Assembly (NCBI GenBank): GCA_944386525.1
Contig: CALXBL010000002.1
Location: 1 to 64,000, forward strand
DNA: 64,000 bases
From: an uncultured Ruminococcus sp.
GTDB taxonomy: Bacteria; Bacillota; Clostridia; Oscillospirales; Ruminococcaceae
Direction: 5' to 3'
The position numbers were made by a program, and so were the translations under genes. Below, piece by piece: positions 49,382-60,412 of this stretch (position 1 is its first letter; every line of letters starts with the position of its first letter). The notes below the pieces were generated by a model. The model worked only from the letters and a program-made list of their open reading frames with translations. It was not told where the DNA came from and ran no database searches.

Positions 49382-49897
49382 ATGAAAAAGCTTTTTGCGA
49401 AAATTGGACTTACATCTTCTCTGACTGCACTTGCAGCAAGTGCAATGGCAGTAACAGCCTCTGCAGAAGGCGGCACAGCCACTCAGGCGTCAGGCACTGG
49501 CGGTATGATGACATCACTTATCATCATGGTTCTGCTTTTTGCTGTTATGTATTTTATTCTGATCCGTCCTCAGAAGAAGAAGGATAAGGAACAGAAGGCT
49601 ATGCAGAACGACCTGCGCATTGGCGACAGAGTTGTTACAATCGGCGGTATCGTTGGTATTGTAGTGAAGCTGGGTGACGACTCCGTAGTTATTGAGAGCG
49701 GCGGCGACAGAAACAGACTTCGCATAAAGAAGTGGGCTATCCAGGAAAATGTTACAGTCCGTGAAGATGCTGAACGTGAACATGCAGCAGCTATAGCTGA
49801 AGCTCAGAAGAAAAAGGAAGAAAAGAAAAAAGGCAAGAAGTCCGGAGTCGAAACCGAAACCGAAATCTCTGACGATAAGGGAATGCTTAAGGACTGA
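49382..49897 (+). CDS. yajC: YajC preprotein translocase accessory subunit
   Basis: A 171-residue protein, longer than the usual 85-110. The N-terminal 28 residues look like a cleavable signal peptide (LTALAASAMAVTASA), then a Gly/Thr stretch, one membrane helix (about 41-58), the conserved FILIRPQKKK motif, a soluble YajC domain (RIGDRVVTIGGIVGIVVKLG), and a Lys/Glu-rich tail. YajC associates with SecDF. It is followed by a terminator. Confidence 0.93.
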   Translation: MKKLFAKIGLTSSLTALAASAMAVTASAEGGTATQASGTGGMMTSLIIMVLLFAVMYFILIRPQKKKDKEQKAMQNDLRIGDRVVTIGGIVGIVVKLGDDSVVIESGGDRNRLRIKKWAIQENVTVREDAEREHAAAIAEAQKKKEEKKKGKKSGVETETEISDDKGMLKD

Positions 49898-50006: not shown

Positions 50007-51245
50007 ATGCATTATTTGCAGAAAATGACATGGCTAAGACCGGCAGCGGTTATCATAGCGGCAGCTATAGCTCTTGTAAGTTTTTCTCCGGCAGAAGTCC
50101 GTATGAAAGCTGAGGCGTTCAGCAGTTCGGATTATGTTGATGAATACGGGGACTTTCTTTATGAGCTTGGTACAATGGAATCGGGCAATGACTATTCTGT
50201 TGAGAGCGGACAGTATCTTGGTTACTGGCAGATGGGCGACGCTGCGCTGATAGAAGCCGGCTTTATTGATGCATCGGGCGGCTGGACTGAGTTTGCCGGC
50301 TCTTTCGGCATAAGCGACAAGGAGAGCTTCCTTGCTTCTGAAGAGGGTCAGGATTACGCTGTTCTTGCGTATCATAAAAAGATATATTACTATGCCTGCA
50401 ATATGGGAGTAGATAACTATATAGGTACTGATGTGGGCGGAGTCGAAATGACCTTTTCCGGTATGATAGCAGGAGCTCATGTGCTGGGAATAGGAGCTTT
50501 GAAGTCGCTTATTGTAAATGGAACAAGCGGAAACTCTGGCAATGATTCCATAGCACTGAAATATATGAATGTCTGCGGCGGATATGATATCGAAAGCACT
50601 ATTTATGGAGATGCATCATTTGATGCAGATAGTATTGTGACGACCACTACAACAACTGCAACAACGACCACTACAACAACTGTAACAACTACAGCAACGA
50701 CCACTACAACTCAACTTAAAGTACCATCTCATATAACGGTAAAGCCGGAGTCAGATGTGGTGATAGCCGGTGATTTTATAAAGCTGTATATTGAGAGTGA
50801 CAATGCAGATTATTATCTTGTGAATATAACTGCACCCGGCAACATTGTAACTGAATATATATTAGCCGGCTCTATGATTGGTATAACAGCAAAAAGTACA
50901 GGTATATACGCTATAGATGTAACAGCAGTGAACAGTGCGGGAGAATCTTCAGCCGAGACTGTATTTGTATTCGTACAAGCAAAACCCATATTAGACGAGG
51001 AGGATATAGGCGACGTCAATTCCGACGGCAGTGTGGATATATCAGACGCATCTCTTATAATCCAGTATTATTCCTGTGCTACGGTAGGTGCAGTTATGCC
51101 GGGTGAAGGTGTGTTTAATGTTTACTGCGCAGACGTAGATGATAATAATGTTATTGAACTCAAGGATGGTTCATTCGTGCTGAGCTTTTATTCGCATAAA
51201 GCAGCCGGAATCGACGTAAGCTGGTCGGATATCACGGGCAAGTGA
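50007..51245 (+). CDS. Secreted dockerin protein with lysozyme-like N-terminal domain
   Basis: A 412-residue exported protein. Signal peptide (about 1-30); an N-terminal domain (about 40-200) with YELGTMESGNDYSV and YLGYWQMGDAAL that resembles lysozyme-like/transglycosylase folds; a Thr/Ala/Val linker (about 210-235); a beta-rich, Ig-like region (about 240-325); and a C-terminal type I dockerin with two Ca-binding repeats (GDVNSDGSVDISD and ADVDDNNVIELKD). The dockerin should tether it to a cohesin scaffold, as in cellulosomal Ruminococcus. The N-domain assignment is tentative; no cohesin or carbohydrate-binding module lies in the window. Confidence 0.82.
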   Translation: MHYLQKMTWLRPAAVIIAAAIALVSFSPAEVRMKAEAFSSSDYVDEYGDFLYELGTMESGNDYSVESGQYLGYWQMGDAALIEAGFIDASGGWTEFAGSFGISDKESFLASEEGQDYAVLAYHKKIYYYACNMGVDNYIGTDVGGVEMTFSGMIAGAHVLGIGALKSLIVNGTSGNSGNDSIALKYMNVCGGYDIESTIYGDASFDADSIVTTTTTTATTTTTTTVTTTATTTTTQLKVPSHITVKPESDVVIAGDFIKLYIESDNADYYLVNITAPGNIVTEYILAGSMIGITAKSTGIYAIDVTAVNSAGESSAETVFVFVQAKPILDEEDIGDVNSDGSVDISDASLIIQYYSCATVGAVMPGEGVFNVYCADVDDNNVIELKDGSFVLSFYSHKAAGIDVSWSDITGK

Positions 51246-51304: not shown

Positions 51305-51721
51305 GTGCGGAACAGATGCAAGACCTTTTGCTGTAGGCTTCAGGATTCAAGATTCTGCTGCATAGCCGGAGCAATCGCAGCAGGACTTGTTATAATAATT
51401 CTATTTATATCGGGATTTTCCTTGCTTATGACAAGTCTCGACGCCTCGGATGAGCTTGTGTCGTGTATGGCGGCGGTATCGCTTTGCGCAGGAAGTTTTA
51501 TTGCAGGTTTTATTGCAGCTAAAAAGAGGCGAAAACATGGTCTGCTGACAGGTTTGCTGTGCGGTGCGGTAATATATTTTGCGGTGTTTTTCTTTGGTCT
51601 GATACTTCTCAGGAGCTTTGCCGGAGCAGGTACGTTCATGAAGCTGATACTTATAATCCTTTGCAGCTGCATAGGCGGAGTTTGTGGAGTGAACACCAGG
51701 TGCCGCAGACCACATAAATAG
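51305..51721 (+). CDS. TIGR04086-family membrane protein, GTG start
   Basis: A 138-residue protein with a Cys/Arg-rich N-terminus and four hydrophobic helices (about 20-42, 50-68, 76-100, 106-128). It matches the small four-helix family TIGR04086, which in Clostridia is typically encoded beside yajC and the SCIFF genes; its function is unknown. GTG at 51305 follows CAGGAGGTG at good spacing. No ATG fits. scfA's own promoter lies 72 bases past its stop. Confidence 0.8.
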   Translation: MRNRCKTFCCRLQDSRFCCIAGAIAAGLVIIILFISGFSLLMTSLDASDELVSCMAAVSLCAGSFIAGFIAAKKRRKHGLLTGLLCGAVIYFAVFFFGLILLRSFAGAGTFMKLILIILCSCIGGVCGVNTRCRRPHK

Positions 51722-51792: not shown

Positions 51793-51821
51793 TTGAATTT
51801 TAAAGTTGTTTGTGGTAAAAT
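51793..51821 (+). promoter_or_regulatory. Promoter of scfA
   Basis: TTGAAT (51793-51798), 17-base spacer, TAAAAT (51816-51821) with TGG before the -10. Confidence 0.8.
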
Positions 51822-51856
51822 GGAATAAGTAATTCTTAAAATAGGAGGTACTCCAG

Positions 51857-51994
51857 ATGAAGCACATCAAGACCATCAATAAGGCTAACCTGAAGGCAAC
51901 TGCTGCTGTGGGTGGCTGCGGCAAGTGTCAGGCTTCCTGCCAGTCTGCTTGCAAGACATCCTGTACTGTTGCTAACCAGAAGTGCGAGAGATAA
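51857..51994 (+). CDS. scfA: SCIFF ribosomally made peptide precursor
   Basis: Exactly 45 residues with six cysteines (C21, C24, C28, C32, C36, C43), the definition of the SCIFF family, near universal in Clostridia. The leader-like N-terminus is MKHIKTINKANLKA. In the studied Clostridium thermocellum homologue the maturase makes a thioether between Cys32 and Thr37; both are present here. Shine-Dalgarno ATAGGAGG is 9 bases before the ATG. The biological role is unknown. The maturase follows after two hairpins. Confidence 0.96.
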   Translation: MKHIKTINKANLKATAAVGGCGKCQASCQSACKTSCTVANQKCER

Positions 51995-52017
51995 TCGAAA
52001 AACAGTAACCTGAAAAT

Positions 52018-52047
52018 ATCCGCACGCCTTTATGGTGTGCGGATTTA
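52018..52047 (+). terminator. Hairpin 1 between scfA and scfB
   Basis: ATCCGCAC / GTGCGGAT stem with an 11-base loop and a short TTTA run, 24 bases after scfA. Confidence 0.6.
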
Positions 52048-52057
52048 TCAGTCATAA

Positions 52058-52083
52058 GAAAGGGACAGAGGGTGTCCCTTTTC
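52058..52083 (+). terminator. Hairpin 2 between scfA and scfB
   Basis: AAAGGGACA / TGTCCCTTT stem with a 6-base loop followed by Ts, 36 bases before scfB. It may act as a partial terminator and lower maturase output. Confidence 0.7.
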
Positions 52084-52118
52084 CTGTTGATATTCAATGA
52101 GAAAAAAGGGTGTATAAA

Positions 52119-53501
52119 ATGATTCATAAGTATAAGCTTTGCGGATATAACGTTGTTCTCGATGTTAACAGCGGAGGCGTTCATATCGTGGACGACCTTA
52201 CATATGATATGCTTACAGATATAGAACCGCCTTTTGGTGACTCATGTCCCCAGGCTGTTGTGGAAAAGCTGTCTCATTTCTATAAGTACGAGGATATTAT
52301 TTCCTGCTATGATGAAATTGTGGCGGCGTATAAGGAAGGCATACTATTCTCCGAGGACGACTATGAGCAGTATGCCGAGGTCGCAGTGGCCTCTCCCATA
52401 AAGGCGATGTGCCTTAATATTGCCCACGACTGCAATCTGAGATGCGAATATTGCTTTGCCTCCACCGGTGACTTCGGTGTGGGCAGAAAGCTGATGACTC
52501 TCGAAACGGGCAAAAAAGCGATCGACTTCCTGATCGAACATTCCGCCAATAGAGAAAATCTGGAGCTCGACTTCTTCGGCGGAGAACCTCTTATGAATAT
52601 AGAAGTTGTCAAGCAGATAGTGGAATACGCCAGAAGCAAGGAAAAAGAACACAACAAGCATTTCCGCTTTACTATAACTACCAACGGTATGCTGCTGAAT
52701 GACGATATAGTTGACTTTATCAACAAGGAGATGTCGAACGTGGTGCTCTCCATCGACGGCAGAAAGGAAGTCAATGACAGAATGCGCAAGCGTGTTGACG
52801 GCAGCGGATGCTACGACAGGATAATCCCAAAATACCGTGACCTCGTTGAAAAGCGCGGCGACGGCGAATATTATGTGAGAGGTACCTATACAAAGTATAA
52901 TCTCGACTTCGCAGACGATGTTTTTAGCCTGCTGGACGAGGGGTTTGACCAAATTTCAGTAGAACCTGTTGTAACTGACCCTAAGGAACCATATGCTCTC
53001 ACCGAAAAGGATCTTCCCGTTATCTTTAAGGAGTATGAGCGTCTTATGCACAAAATCCTTGACTACGAAAAGACCGGCAGGAAGTTTAACTTCTTCCACT
53101 TTATGCTCGACCTCGACCAGGGACCGTGTGCTATAAAGCGTCTGAGAGGCTGCGGCTGCGGCAATGACTATGTGGCTATTACTCCGGATGGAGATATTTA
53201 CCCATGTCACCAGTTCGTAGGCGAGGAAAAGTACAAGATGGGTAATCTTGACGAGGGAACTTTCGACTATGAGATGAAGAAAGACTTTGCTAAGATGCAC
53301 GTCTACACAAAGCCTGACTGCCGTGACTGCTGGGCGAAGTTCTATTGCAGCGGAGGCTGTAATGCAAACAATTACATCTATGCAGGAGATCCACGCAAGG
53401 CTCATCGTATGTCGTGCGAGATTGAGAAGAAGCGTCTGGAGTGCGCTATCGTACTGAAGGCGATACGCATGGGCGAAAGTACCGACCCAAGTGAAGAATG
53501 A
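52119..53501 (+). CDS. scfB: SCIFF maturase, radical SAM/SPASM thioether synthase
   Basis: A 460-residue radical SAM enzyme that installs thioether bonds in the SCIFF peptide. It has an N-terminal peptide-binding RRE-like region (about 1-85), the cluster motif CNLRCEYC (C105, C109, C112), GGEPLMN, and a C-terminal SPASM domain with CAIKRLRGCGCG, DIYPCHQF, PDCRDCWAKFYCSGGC and MSCEIEK, enough cysteines for two auxiliary [4Fe-4S] clusters. ATG 52119 (MIHKYKLCGYN) preferred to a GTG three codons upstream. It ends at a strong terminator. Confidence 0.96.
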   Translation: MIHKYKLCGYNVVLDVNSGGVHIVDDLTYDMLTDIEPPFGDSCPQAVVEKLSHFYKYEDIISCYDEIVAAYKEGILFSEDDYEQYAEVAVASPIKAMCLNIAHDCNLRCEYCFASTGDFGVGRKLMTLETGKKAIDFLIEHSANRENLELDFFGGEPLMNIEVVKQIVEYARSKEKEHNKHFRFTITTNGMLLNDDIVDFINKEMSNVVLSIDGRKEVNDRMRKRVDGSGCYDRIIPKYRDLVEKRGDGEYYVRGTYTKYNLDFADDVFSLLDEGFDQISVEPVVTDPKEPYALTEKDLPVIFKEYERLMHKILDYEKTGRKFNFFHFMLDLDQGPCAIKRLRGCGCGNDYVAITPDGDIYPCHQFVGEEKYKMGNLDEGTFDYEMKKDFAKMHVYTKPDCRDCWAKFYCSGGCNANNYIYAGDPRKAHRMSCEIEKKRLECAIVLKAIRMGESTDPSEE

Positions 53502-53505
53502 TCAG

Positions 53506-53536
53506 AAGGGACTGTCAAATGACGGTCCCTTTTTTG
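53506..53536 (+). terminator. Terminator of scfB
   Basis: AAGGGACTGTCA / TGACGGTCCCTT stem, two-base loop, then Ts, directly after the stop codon. Confidence 0.92.
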
Positions 53537-57806: not shown

Positions 57807-58472
57807 ATGGCAGTTAAAACTCCCGATGATTATATGAGAGAAATGATGGAAATGCACCGGCGTTCAAGTGCATCGGCGGAGCATACTCCTAAGCCTGAGC
57901 CAATGACAAGACCTGAGTCTGAACCAAGACCAGAGCCAGCGCCAAGACCAGAGCCTGCGCCGAGACCAGAGCCTGCGCCGAGACCAGAGCCTGCGCCGAG
58001 ACCAGAGCCTGCGCCAAGACCAGAGCCTGCACCAAGACCCGAGCCTGCGCCAAGACCAGAGCCTGCACCCGAACCAGAGGCGGTTATTATAACTCCTGAC
58101 GCAACTCCGGATGAGACATCTTTTGGATGGCTTCAGGTGACGGCAAGAGCAGCGTCACAGGCGCAGCCTCTTGAGGGCGTTGTGGTGCACATAACAAAGG
58201 GCGATGACCTGCTGTATACGCTCACCACTGATAAGAGCGGTACTGCTCCTAAGGTTAAGCTTCCGGCACCTGCTATAACTAATACGCCTGTTCAGCCGTT
58301 CAGCATATATAATGTGACAGCATATCTGGAGGGCTACTCCAGGCTGAAAAGTCAGGCTGTACCGGTATTTTCAGGAATTACAACGATCCAGCCGTTTACT
58401 ATGATCCCGCTTGCAAAAGGAGCAGATCCGGACAAAGTTATCATAAACGAAAATACAGAGCCTGAATTTTAA
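57807..58472 (+). CDS. Proline-rich PRPEPA-repeat protein, function unknown
   Basis: A 221-residue protein with no signal peptide: a charged N-terminus (1-38), eight PRPEPA hexapeptides (about 40-87) that should be extended and disordered, then a beta-rich domain (about 100-215) with [24 protein letters not shown] and [10 protein letters not shown]. That pattern resembles carboxypeptidase-regulatory-like domains that carry short prefix strands. Function not known. It heads a three-gene run with the SpoIID-like and peptidoglycan-binding genes, 12 bases before the next; Shine-Dalgarno TGGAGGT. Confidence 0.75.
57924..58067 (+). repeat. Eight tandem 18-base units coding PRPEPA
   Basis: Eight in-frame units of the form CCAAGACCAGAGCCTGCG, nearly identical in DNA with only third-position and few other changes, so the array is recent or actively homogenised. 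It lies wholly inside the preceding CDS and is not a CRISPR array. Confidence 0.95.
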
Positions 58473-58484
58473 GGAGGTGACAAG

Positions 58485-59894
58485 ATGCCAATAGGAGAAC
58501 CATACGTTCCTGAAACTATTACAGTGCATCTGGGAAGTCTCGACAGCGACGCTGAAAACGTGACTCTGCCCTTTCCCGACTACATAAAAAACGTTGCGTC
58601 GAGTGAGATTTATCCTACATGGCCGGAGGCTGCACTGCGTGCAAATATATATGCAATAGTGAGCGTTGCCCTCAACCGTATATATACCGAATGGTACAGG
58701 GTAAGGGGATATGACTTTGACATTACGGATTCAACGCAGTACGATCAGAAATTCATCAAGGATAGACAGATATTTGAAAATATCTCCCAGATAGTAGACG
58801 AGATATTCGACGACTATGTTCGCCGGCAGGGTTCTGTAGAGCCGCTGTTTACGCAATTCTGCAACGGTACTACAGTTACCTGCGATGGTATGTCCCAATG
58901 GGGCACAGTGGAGCTGGCTGAACAGGGAATGACGCCCTATGAGATACTCCAGTATTATTACGGAGACGATATAGAGATCGTGAGGAATGCTCCGATCCGC
59001 ACGGGTACACCATCATATCCGGGTTTCCCCATATCACTTGGATACGTGGGCAACGAGGCCCGCACCATACAGATACAGCTGAACCGTATTGCAAGGAATT
59101 ATCCTGCCATACCTAAAATTGGCGACGTAAGCGGAGATTTTGACTACGCCACAGAAGAGGCTGTCCGTGCCTTTCAGGAGATATTTAATCTGCCTGTAAC
59201 CGGAGTTGTGGATAAGGCTACTTGGAATAAGATTGCCTATATTTATCTTAGCGTAAAGAAACTGGCGGAGCTTGACTCAGAGGGACTTCGTGCTGAGGAG
59301 GCAGAAAAACAGTTTACCGAGACACTGGAAGTTGGTATGCAGGGTAAGCAGGTAAGGGGGCTGCAATATTATCTGGCAGTTATAGGCGCATATTATGAGG
59401 AAGTTATGCCAGTGGAGATTACAGGTTACTTTGGAACAGAGACCGAGAATTCAGTGAAATCATTCCAGCGTGTGTTCGGACTGCCCGAGACCGGCATTGT
59501 AGACATAAATACTGCAAGAGATCTCTACAGAGCATATTTCGGCATACTCGACAGTCTGCCGCCGCCTGATCCTGAGGTGGGAAATGTAGTGCTTTTTCCG
59601 GGCGTTGTGCTGCGTGAGGGGGCAAGCGGAGAATATGTCAAGATACTGCAGACATACCTTAGTTATATTCACCAGACCTTTCCCGAGATAAACGATGTAA
59701 CTCCCACAGGCTACTTCGGACCTATGACAAAAGCAGCAGTAACATCGTTTCAGAAACTTTTTGGTATGCCTGAAAACGGCGTTGTAAGTCTTGCCGTGTG
59801 GGATAAGATAACTGAGATATATTCCGACCTGAGATTCGGCATGGATAAACGCCCATACCAGTCACCGGGCTATACGATATCCGGAGATTCATAA
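58485..59894 (+). CDS. SpoIID/LytB-like domain with three peptidoglycan-binding domains, no signal peptide
   Basis: A 469-residue protein. The N-terminal half (about 1-165) follows the SpoIID/LytB amidase-enhancer pattern: IYPTWPEAALRANIYAIVSV (with a Glu just before it, the likely catalytic position), CDGMSQWGTVELAEQGMTPY and EILQYYYGDDIEIV. Then come three PG_binding_1-type repeats (about 190-255, 285-350, 380-445), each with YFG...VKSFQRVFGLP-type motifs. SpoIID is a lytic transglycosylase of engulfment. Unlike it, this protein shows no signal peptide or membrane helix, so its compartment is puzzling. Confidence 0.8.
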   Translation: MPIGEPYVPETITVHLGSLDSDAENVTLPFPDYIKNVASSEIYPTWPEAALRANIYAIVSVALNRIYTEWYRVRGYDFDITDSTQYDQKFIKDRQIFENISQIVDEIFDDYVRRQGSVEPLFTQFCNGTTVTCDGMSQWGTVELAEQGMTPYEILQYYYGDDIEIVRNAPIRTGTPSYPGFPISLGYVGNEARTIQIQLNRIARNYPAIPKIGDVSGDFDYATEEAVRAFQEIFNLPVTGVVDKATWNKIAYIYLSVKKLAELDSEGLRAEEAEKQFTETLEVGMQGKQVRGLQYYLAVIGAYYEEVMPVEITGYFGTETENSVKSFQRVFGLPETGIVDINTARDLYRAYFGILDSLPPPDPEVGNVVLFPGVVLREGASGEYVKILQTYLSYIHQTFPEINDVTPTGYFGPMTKAAVTSFQKLFGMPENGVVSLAVWDKITEIYSDLRFGMDKRPYQSPGYTISGDS

Positions 59895-59908
59895 GGAGGT
59901 ATCATCAT

Positions 59909-60412
59909 ATGGCATACACACAGGAACAGCAGCGTGAGCATATAAGAGAGCTTCAGAAGATGCTCTACGAGCTGTCTTTTATTGATGACAGAATTCCAGT
60001 GATAATACCCGACGGCATATATGACAGGGAGACAGCTCAGGCTGTAAAGACCTTTCAGCAGCTATACGGACTCCGTCCCACCGGAGAGGTCAATCATGCT
60101 TCGTGGGAACTCATTGCGGCAGAGCACTTTGATAAGGTGGGCAGCACTCCTGTAAGGCTCGATATTTTTCCTAAGGACAGAATATATATATCCAAAGGAG
60201 ACAGAGGTCTTGAGGTCTACGCCGTACAGGCACTTCTTGCAGTTCTTGCAGAGGCTTTTGGTAATTTTGCCGCACCCCTTGTAACGGGCATATACGACGA
60301 CGAGACAGAACGTGCTGTCGGAGCATTTCAGAACATAGGTCTTATTCCCGTTACAGGCAGCACCGACAGGGAGACATGGAATCTTCTTGCTGCTGCCGTG
60401 GGAAATGTATAA
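59909..60412 (+). CDS. Protein with two peptidoglycan-binding domains, no signal peptide
   Basis: A 167-residue protein of two PG_binding_1-type domains (about 5-75 and 90-165): DGIYDRETAQAVKTFQQLYG and GIYDDETERAVGAFQNIG are the repeated halves, each ending in a TW motif. There is no signal peptide, catalytic domain or membrane helix. It lies 14 bases after the SpoIID-like gene with Shine-Dalgarno AAGGAGG, and a terminator follows. It may be an adaptor that places the other two products on peptidoglycan (inference). Confidence 0.8.
   Translation: MAYTQEQQREHIRELQKMLYELSFIDDRIPVIIPDGIYDRETAQAVKTFQQLYGLRPTGEVNHASWELIAAEHFDKVGSTPVRLDIFPKDRIYISKGDRGLEVYAVQALLAVLAEAFGNFAAPLVTGIYDDETERAVGAFQNIGLIPVTGSTDRETWNLLAAAVGNV

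Follow-up and report, generated by a model that had tools for sequence, protein, structure and literature searches.

The SCIFF family of peptides is said to have been described by Haft and Basu in 2011. Within this precursor family, the closest described system is CteA/CteB (thermocellin) of Clostridium thermocellum (PDB 5wgg and 5why), a bacterium of a different genus than the one analysed here, and for CteA a non-alpha thioether, the ranthipeptide criterion, is known according to the available text of two articles (PMC8326336; PMC8172795). The position of the crosslink has been reported differently, with in vitro work giving Cys32-Thr37 (Bruender 2016; Grove 2017) and co-expression giving Cys32-Thr34 with an S-Cgamma bond (Hudson 2019), results that the accessible parts of the same two articles term inconsistent and the difference between them unexplained. 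Equally, the freyrasin ranthipeptides PapA/PapB involve a thioether-forming radical SAM/SPASM maturase like the ScfB treated here, although, as far as the available text goes, the freyrasin precursor has Cys-to-Asp bridges in Cys-X3-Asp motifs, unlike the SCIFF core (PMC8326336; PMC8172795).

A locus of this type is located in the window, that is, the whole stretch of 64,000 nucleotides from an uncultured Ruminococcus sp. that was analysed, with the following features.

49382-49897, + strand: yajC, remainder of the ancestral Sec-operon surroundings, considered a bystander (TIGR00739, 85.1 bits, cut-off 44.2)
51305-51721, + strand: gene for a TIGR04086/DUF3792 small membrane protein, common to many SCIFF loci, judged a bystander (66.4 bits, cut-off 30)
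51793-51821, + strand: possible sigma-70-type promoter of scfA, TTGAAT, 17 nt, TAAAAT, with TG before the second hexamer
51844-51850, + strand: strong ribosome-binding site of scfA, AGGAGGT, read from the sequence
51857-51994, + strand: scfA, SCIFF precursor with leader (residues 1-20) and Cys-rich core (21-43) (TIGR03973, PF13165)
52018-52044, + strand: hairpin between scfA and scfB with an 11-bp stem, probable attenuator (-21.0 kcal/mol, z -8.1)
52119-53501, + strand: scfB, radical SAM/SPASM thioether-forming SCIFF maturase of the CteB family (TIGR03974, alignment with 5wgg)
53504-53533, + strand: intrinsic terminator after scfB, 13 pairs, T-rich tail

The scfA product of 45 amino acids has, as read from the sequence, cysteines at positions 21, 24, 28, 32, 36 and 43, a spacing of C-x2-C-x3-C-x3-C-x3-C-x6-C, and threonine at both 34 and 37. 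It covers model positions 1-43 of 43 of the SCIFF precursor model TIGR03973 (79.4 bits, cut-off 50) and matches PF13165 with 82.9 bits (cut-off 27), and an earlier sequence-only reading of this DNA, which had proposed a 45-residue, six-cysteine SCIFF precursor, was exact in coordinates, length and cysteine count. The maturase gene adjoins the precursor gene, with 124 bases between the scfA stop codon and the likely ATG start of scfB at 52119 (460 aa; alternatively GTG at 52110, 463 aa). The score of ScfB with the maturase model TIGR03974 (707 bits, cut-off 425) is higher than with the 'not_ScfB' exception model NF040492 (568 bits, own cut-off 855), and with the PapB model NF047865 it reaches 280.6 bits, below the cut-off of 340. 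The nearest solved structure is CteB 5wgg (E 7.7e-181), and in the full-length alignment the CNLRCEYC stretch, a CxxxCxxC radical SAM motif, and the SPASM cysteines are in register with CteB, so that the maturase equally is of the kind that had been proposed. ScfB occurs as a single copy in the genome from which the window is derived (1.85 Mb, 102 contigs, 91.9% complete). Judged by these models and alignments, the locus is a correctly annotated, ordinary member of the described SCIFF family.

Among 80 named loci, the closest ScfB proteins were those of a Clostridium sp. metagenome-assembled genome (L204, 77.7% identical) and of Ruminococcus flavefaciens FD-1 (L208, 75.6%), which differ from the window by sequence divergence only and have the core start CGKCQASCQ with Lys23, as in the window precursor, at a position occupied by Glu in 72 of 73 distinct precursors. 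Because these two are the closest and have this unusual lysine in common, the window contains a Ruminococcus-type copy. With respect to expression, a scan of the region for promoters found four sites of the kind seen at 51793-51821 against 4.0 in shuffles, as many as by chance, so that position alone speaks for this candidate. The hairpin between the genes recurs: in 56 same-strand scfA-scfB pairs (55 loci and the window), 47 of which are separated by 40 nt or more, the z value versus mononucleotide shuffles is below -2 in 42 of these 47 gaps. We infer a partial terminator or attenuator that leaves more peptide message than enzyme message.

The precursor had been called near universal in Clostridia, which is borne out in 291 genomes sampled evenly across the class. 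SCIFF is present in 245 of them, nearly always in one copy, and ScfB in 242, with 239 genomes possessing both, six SCIFF only, three ScfB only and 43 neither (Fisher p 3.5e-41, from counts that ignore phylogeny). In 60 loci, hand-chosen with one or a few per family and analysed with flanks of up to 10 kb, scfB adjoins scfA in 55; in four of the other five it is located elsewhere in the genome (G003, locus L038; G220, L046; G027, L051; G190, L065), the fifth being in genome G094. In one genus (g105), the listed places of scfA and scfB are far apart in all five genomes. Six Selenomonas/Selenomonadaceae loci (L149, L161, L165, L170, L173 and L176) contain SCIFF with an adjacent ScfB, and the gene pair therefore extends beyond Clostridia. 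Four of the SCIFF-only genomes were not counted as cases of true maturase loss, since scfB is present as two adjoining fragments in G020, as one fragment in G175 and as a copy truncated where the contig stops in G240, while G230 is only 69% complete. The split scfB of G020 (G020:C189:8637-9964), a broken gene or an assembly error, stands with an intact SCIFF. A location of SCIFF on mobile elements was equally discarded: the sole 'plasmid' match is a 2.63-Mb Acetoanaerobium record, and the matches in the phage collection are ten unannotated human-faecal 'Bacteriophage sp.' records. Three of these ten were inspected (L226-L228; MT835472.1, MT836984.1 and MT836452.1), all of them labelled UNVERIFIED; the scfA-scfB pair is found in all three, TIGR04086 in two and secDF in one, and because of this content they look like bacterial DNA, probably misfiled as phage.

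Conservation of the core bears on which threonine is crosslinked. The 92 loci yield 73 distinct precursors, in all of which the six cysteines, S27, Q29-A31, K33-S35 and N40 are identical; Thr34 is thus found in 73 of 73, whereas position 37 is threonine in 61 and glycine in 12. The restriction to ScfB-bearing genomes gives Thr34 in 57 of 57 and Gly37 in 11 of 57 distinct precursors. Because the lineages with Gly37 retain ScfB and yet cannot form a gamma-carbon bond at residue 37, the alignment favours Thr34 over Thr37 as the crosslink site; a sulfur bond to the alpha carbon of Gly37 is conceivable in principle, whereas one to a gamma carbon is not. Of the Cys32/Thr37 pair put forward in the sequence-only reading, the residues are therefore present, but Thr37 is the older assignment, followed by Cys32-Thr34 in the partly accessible literature, and position 37 varies. 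In the portions of the literature covered by our search, an earlier conservation argument for Thr34 over Thr37 was not found.

Genomes with SCIFF and no detectable maturase provide another view of the peptide. In G094 (99% complete) and G229 (98% complete) SCIFF is present and ScfB was not found even at E 1e-20. The family to which both belong, sampled with 36 genomes of five genera of the class Clostridia, contains an intact SCIFF over the cut-off in seven genomes of three genera (stand-alone loci L109-L115 in G308, G319, G094, G316, G229, G307 and G318), and ScfB in none of the 36 in a search at E 1e-60, for which the matches of the same model in 242 class genomes serve as positive control. 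The seven orphan genes encode the full core in every case, have, judged by eye, a ribosome-binding sequence in six and a terminator in several, and are found in six different gene contexts. In G307 and G308, SCIFF is located at the same place beside recG; because of this shared context and of a RecG that is mostly 57-70% identical to that of other family members, a comparison within the family, their contigs look native and not like contamination. For the G316 gene, on a 5.7-kb contig, this is less certain.

When G307 is compared with G308, the core shows eight synonymous and one amino-acid codon change and the leader five and five, and the mean core change over all 21 orphan pairs (11.8 synonymous, 1.9 amino-acid) equals that of 60 class-set loci (11.8 and 1.9), of which 59 come from ScfB-bearing genomes. 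The simplest reading of these counts would be that the core is still under selection without ScfB. Since the orphan core is as constrained as in ScfB-bearing genomes, we tentatively consider a ScfB-independent function of the core, in which the thioether would be a dispensable improvement to a thiol-rich peptide that is active without it, an idea that is possible but carries well under even odds. The leader, which presumably only the maturase needs, may be drifting in the orphans, as leaders of the seven score lower than those of 57 ScfB-bearing sequences (p 0.0027); a relaxed leader is nevertheless not secure, because the comparison with eight low-GC ScfB-bearing loci gives p 0.12 and AT-rich drift could explain the difference. 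Alternatively, orphan SCIFF might be modified by another radical SAM enzyme. SPASM proteins are found in five of the seven genomes by TIGR04085 and in four by PF13186, and the one of G319 scores 124 bits with the ScfB model and 133 with that of PapB; by neither TIGR04085 nor PF13186 was a SPASM protein found in G229 and G316, and of the six SPASM proteins scanned none attains the curated cut-off of any peptide-maturase family among those listed. Orphan SCIFF might also have been acquired by transfer too recently to have decayed, with which the resemblance of some orphan alleles to different lineages and the lack of SCIFF in 29 of the 36 family genomes are in line.

Upstream of scfA the window encodes YajC, a dockerin protein and the TIGR04086 membrane protein, and downstream of scfB a ParA/MinD-like ATPase and 2-oxoacid:ferredoxin oxidoreductase genes. 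The dockerin-type gene (50007-51245), between yajC and the TIGR04086 gene, has a product of 412 aa that contains a linker rich in threonine and matches dockerin type I weakly; this insertion into the usual order is in line with a cellulosome-bearing Ruminococcus. Further downstream, a protein with several Pro-Glu-Pro-Ala-Pro-Arg type repeats is encoded at 57807-58472, and two adjoining open reading frames at 58485-60412 seem by eye to have multiple peptidoglycan-binding repeats, one of them with a SpoIID-like stretch. No recognisable peptide exporter or protease was found among the window neighbours on either side of scfA-scfB, as had been stated before, with the qualification that a small membrane protein is encoded by the gene nearest upstream.

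What is known of the family allows the mechanism that the locus would embody to be outlined. ScfB would bind the KHIKT leader through its N-terminal recognition domain, cleavage of SAM would lead to a radical on a threonine side chain, and Cys32 would become linked to Thr34 by one S-Cgamma thioether, so that five cysteines remain free. The intergenic hairpin would result in an excess of peptide over enzyme, and the mature product would, as its conservation suggests, act on a conserved target in some general function of the cell, either regulatory or related to thiols or metals. A general function and not a strain-specific signal or antibiotic is proposed because the core is almost invariant, single copy and inherited; together with the lack of linked export and sensor genes this is inferred to fit a general function better than a signal or bacteriocin. 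Taken as a whole, a standard scfA-scfB pair with a Cys32-Thr34 thioether, peptide excess, a general cell function and an ancestral gene order is the probable explanation, held with good though not full confidence.

Could the neighbouring genes be partners of the peptide? The frequent order is queA-tgt-yajC-TIGR04086-scfA-scfB-secDF-recJ, in which the names of genes other than the family-scanned ones are those we take them to have, as recognised from the sequences. Within 2.5 kb and on the same strand of the 60 SCIFF loci, yajC is found 32, TIGR04086 30, secDF 26 and tgt 25 times, a recurrence which might indicate that TIGR04086, YajC and SecDF export the peptide or are regulated by it. Against this stands the statistical independence of TIGR04086 and SCIFF in the 291 genomes (184 with both, 61 SCIFF only, 30 TIGR04086 only, 16 neither; Fisher p 0.20), including the 61 of 245 SCIFF genomes without TIGR04086. 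SCIFF-less genomes can equally keep the operon, since at 20 TIGR04086-centred loci from 20 of the 30 such genomes yajC is found eight and secDF six times within 2.5 kb, gene order being only partly kept as the rest are without yajC or secDF. As these neighbours serve housekeeping purposes and have long been arranged in this common order, a role of the Sec operon in SCIFF biology is improbable, and yajC, TIGR04086 and secDF look like inherited gene order and not like partners. TIGR04086 as the missing SCIFF exporter was discarded because of the lack of co-occurrence and its presence in Bacillus subtilis, in which the control match was found. The search for conserved neighbours that had been proposed thus recovered a recurring Sec-operon order, while a partner role for it is not supported.

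Peptide signals are usually divergent between species, and the SCIFF core hardly varies across the class. This argues against the reading that matured SCIFF is exported for quorum sensing and governs agr, sporulation and solvent genes, as does the lack of export, processing and sensor genes among the window neighbours. Spo0A is equally unassociated with SCIFF in the 291 genomes (179 with both, 66 SCIFF only, 34 Spo0A only, 12 neither; p 1.0), and a distribution linked to sporulation was rejected on this ground. A signal would, on the other hand, fit the phenotype in C. beijerinckii, in which disruption of precursor and maturase led to lower expression of sporulation genes and higher expression of agr (Chen 2020), while in C. 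ljungdahlii no link with sporulation could be made, both according to the available part of the source (PMC8102284); equally, a table in the accessible part of a review enters 'Quorum sensing' (PMC8326336). The earlier statement that the family has no established function overlooked these mutants, which, on what can be seen of these sources, are themselves not conclusive. A quorum-sensing role is accordingly rated as unlikely, although it deserves more weight than a partnership with the Sec operon. An antimicrobial, bacteriocin-like peptide is the most improbable reading of all: a Hungate1000 survey counts TIGR03973 among putative bacteriocin clusters, but the available text of the same work describes the class as ubiquitous in Clostridia and without well-characterised antimicrobial activity (PMC13289728), the wide spread speaks against such a role in the accessible part of the review (PMC8326336), and immunity and export genes are absent beside a locus with a near-universal, nearly invariant core.

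The locus on its own matters little, being one more copy of a known family, and it is the wider comparison that could matter. To the conflicting reports on the crosslink it adds a sequence-based evolutionary argument for Thr34 over Thr37. Furthermore, the genomes that possess SCIFF without its maturase represent a natural experiment on the function of the peptide that points to the unmodified core: the retention of the peptide in some related bacteria after loss of the enzyme suggests that the Cys-rich core may have a role of its own.
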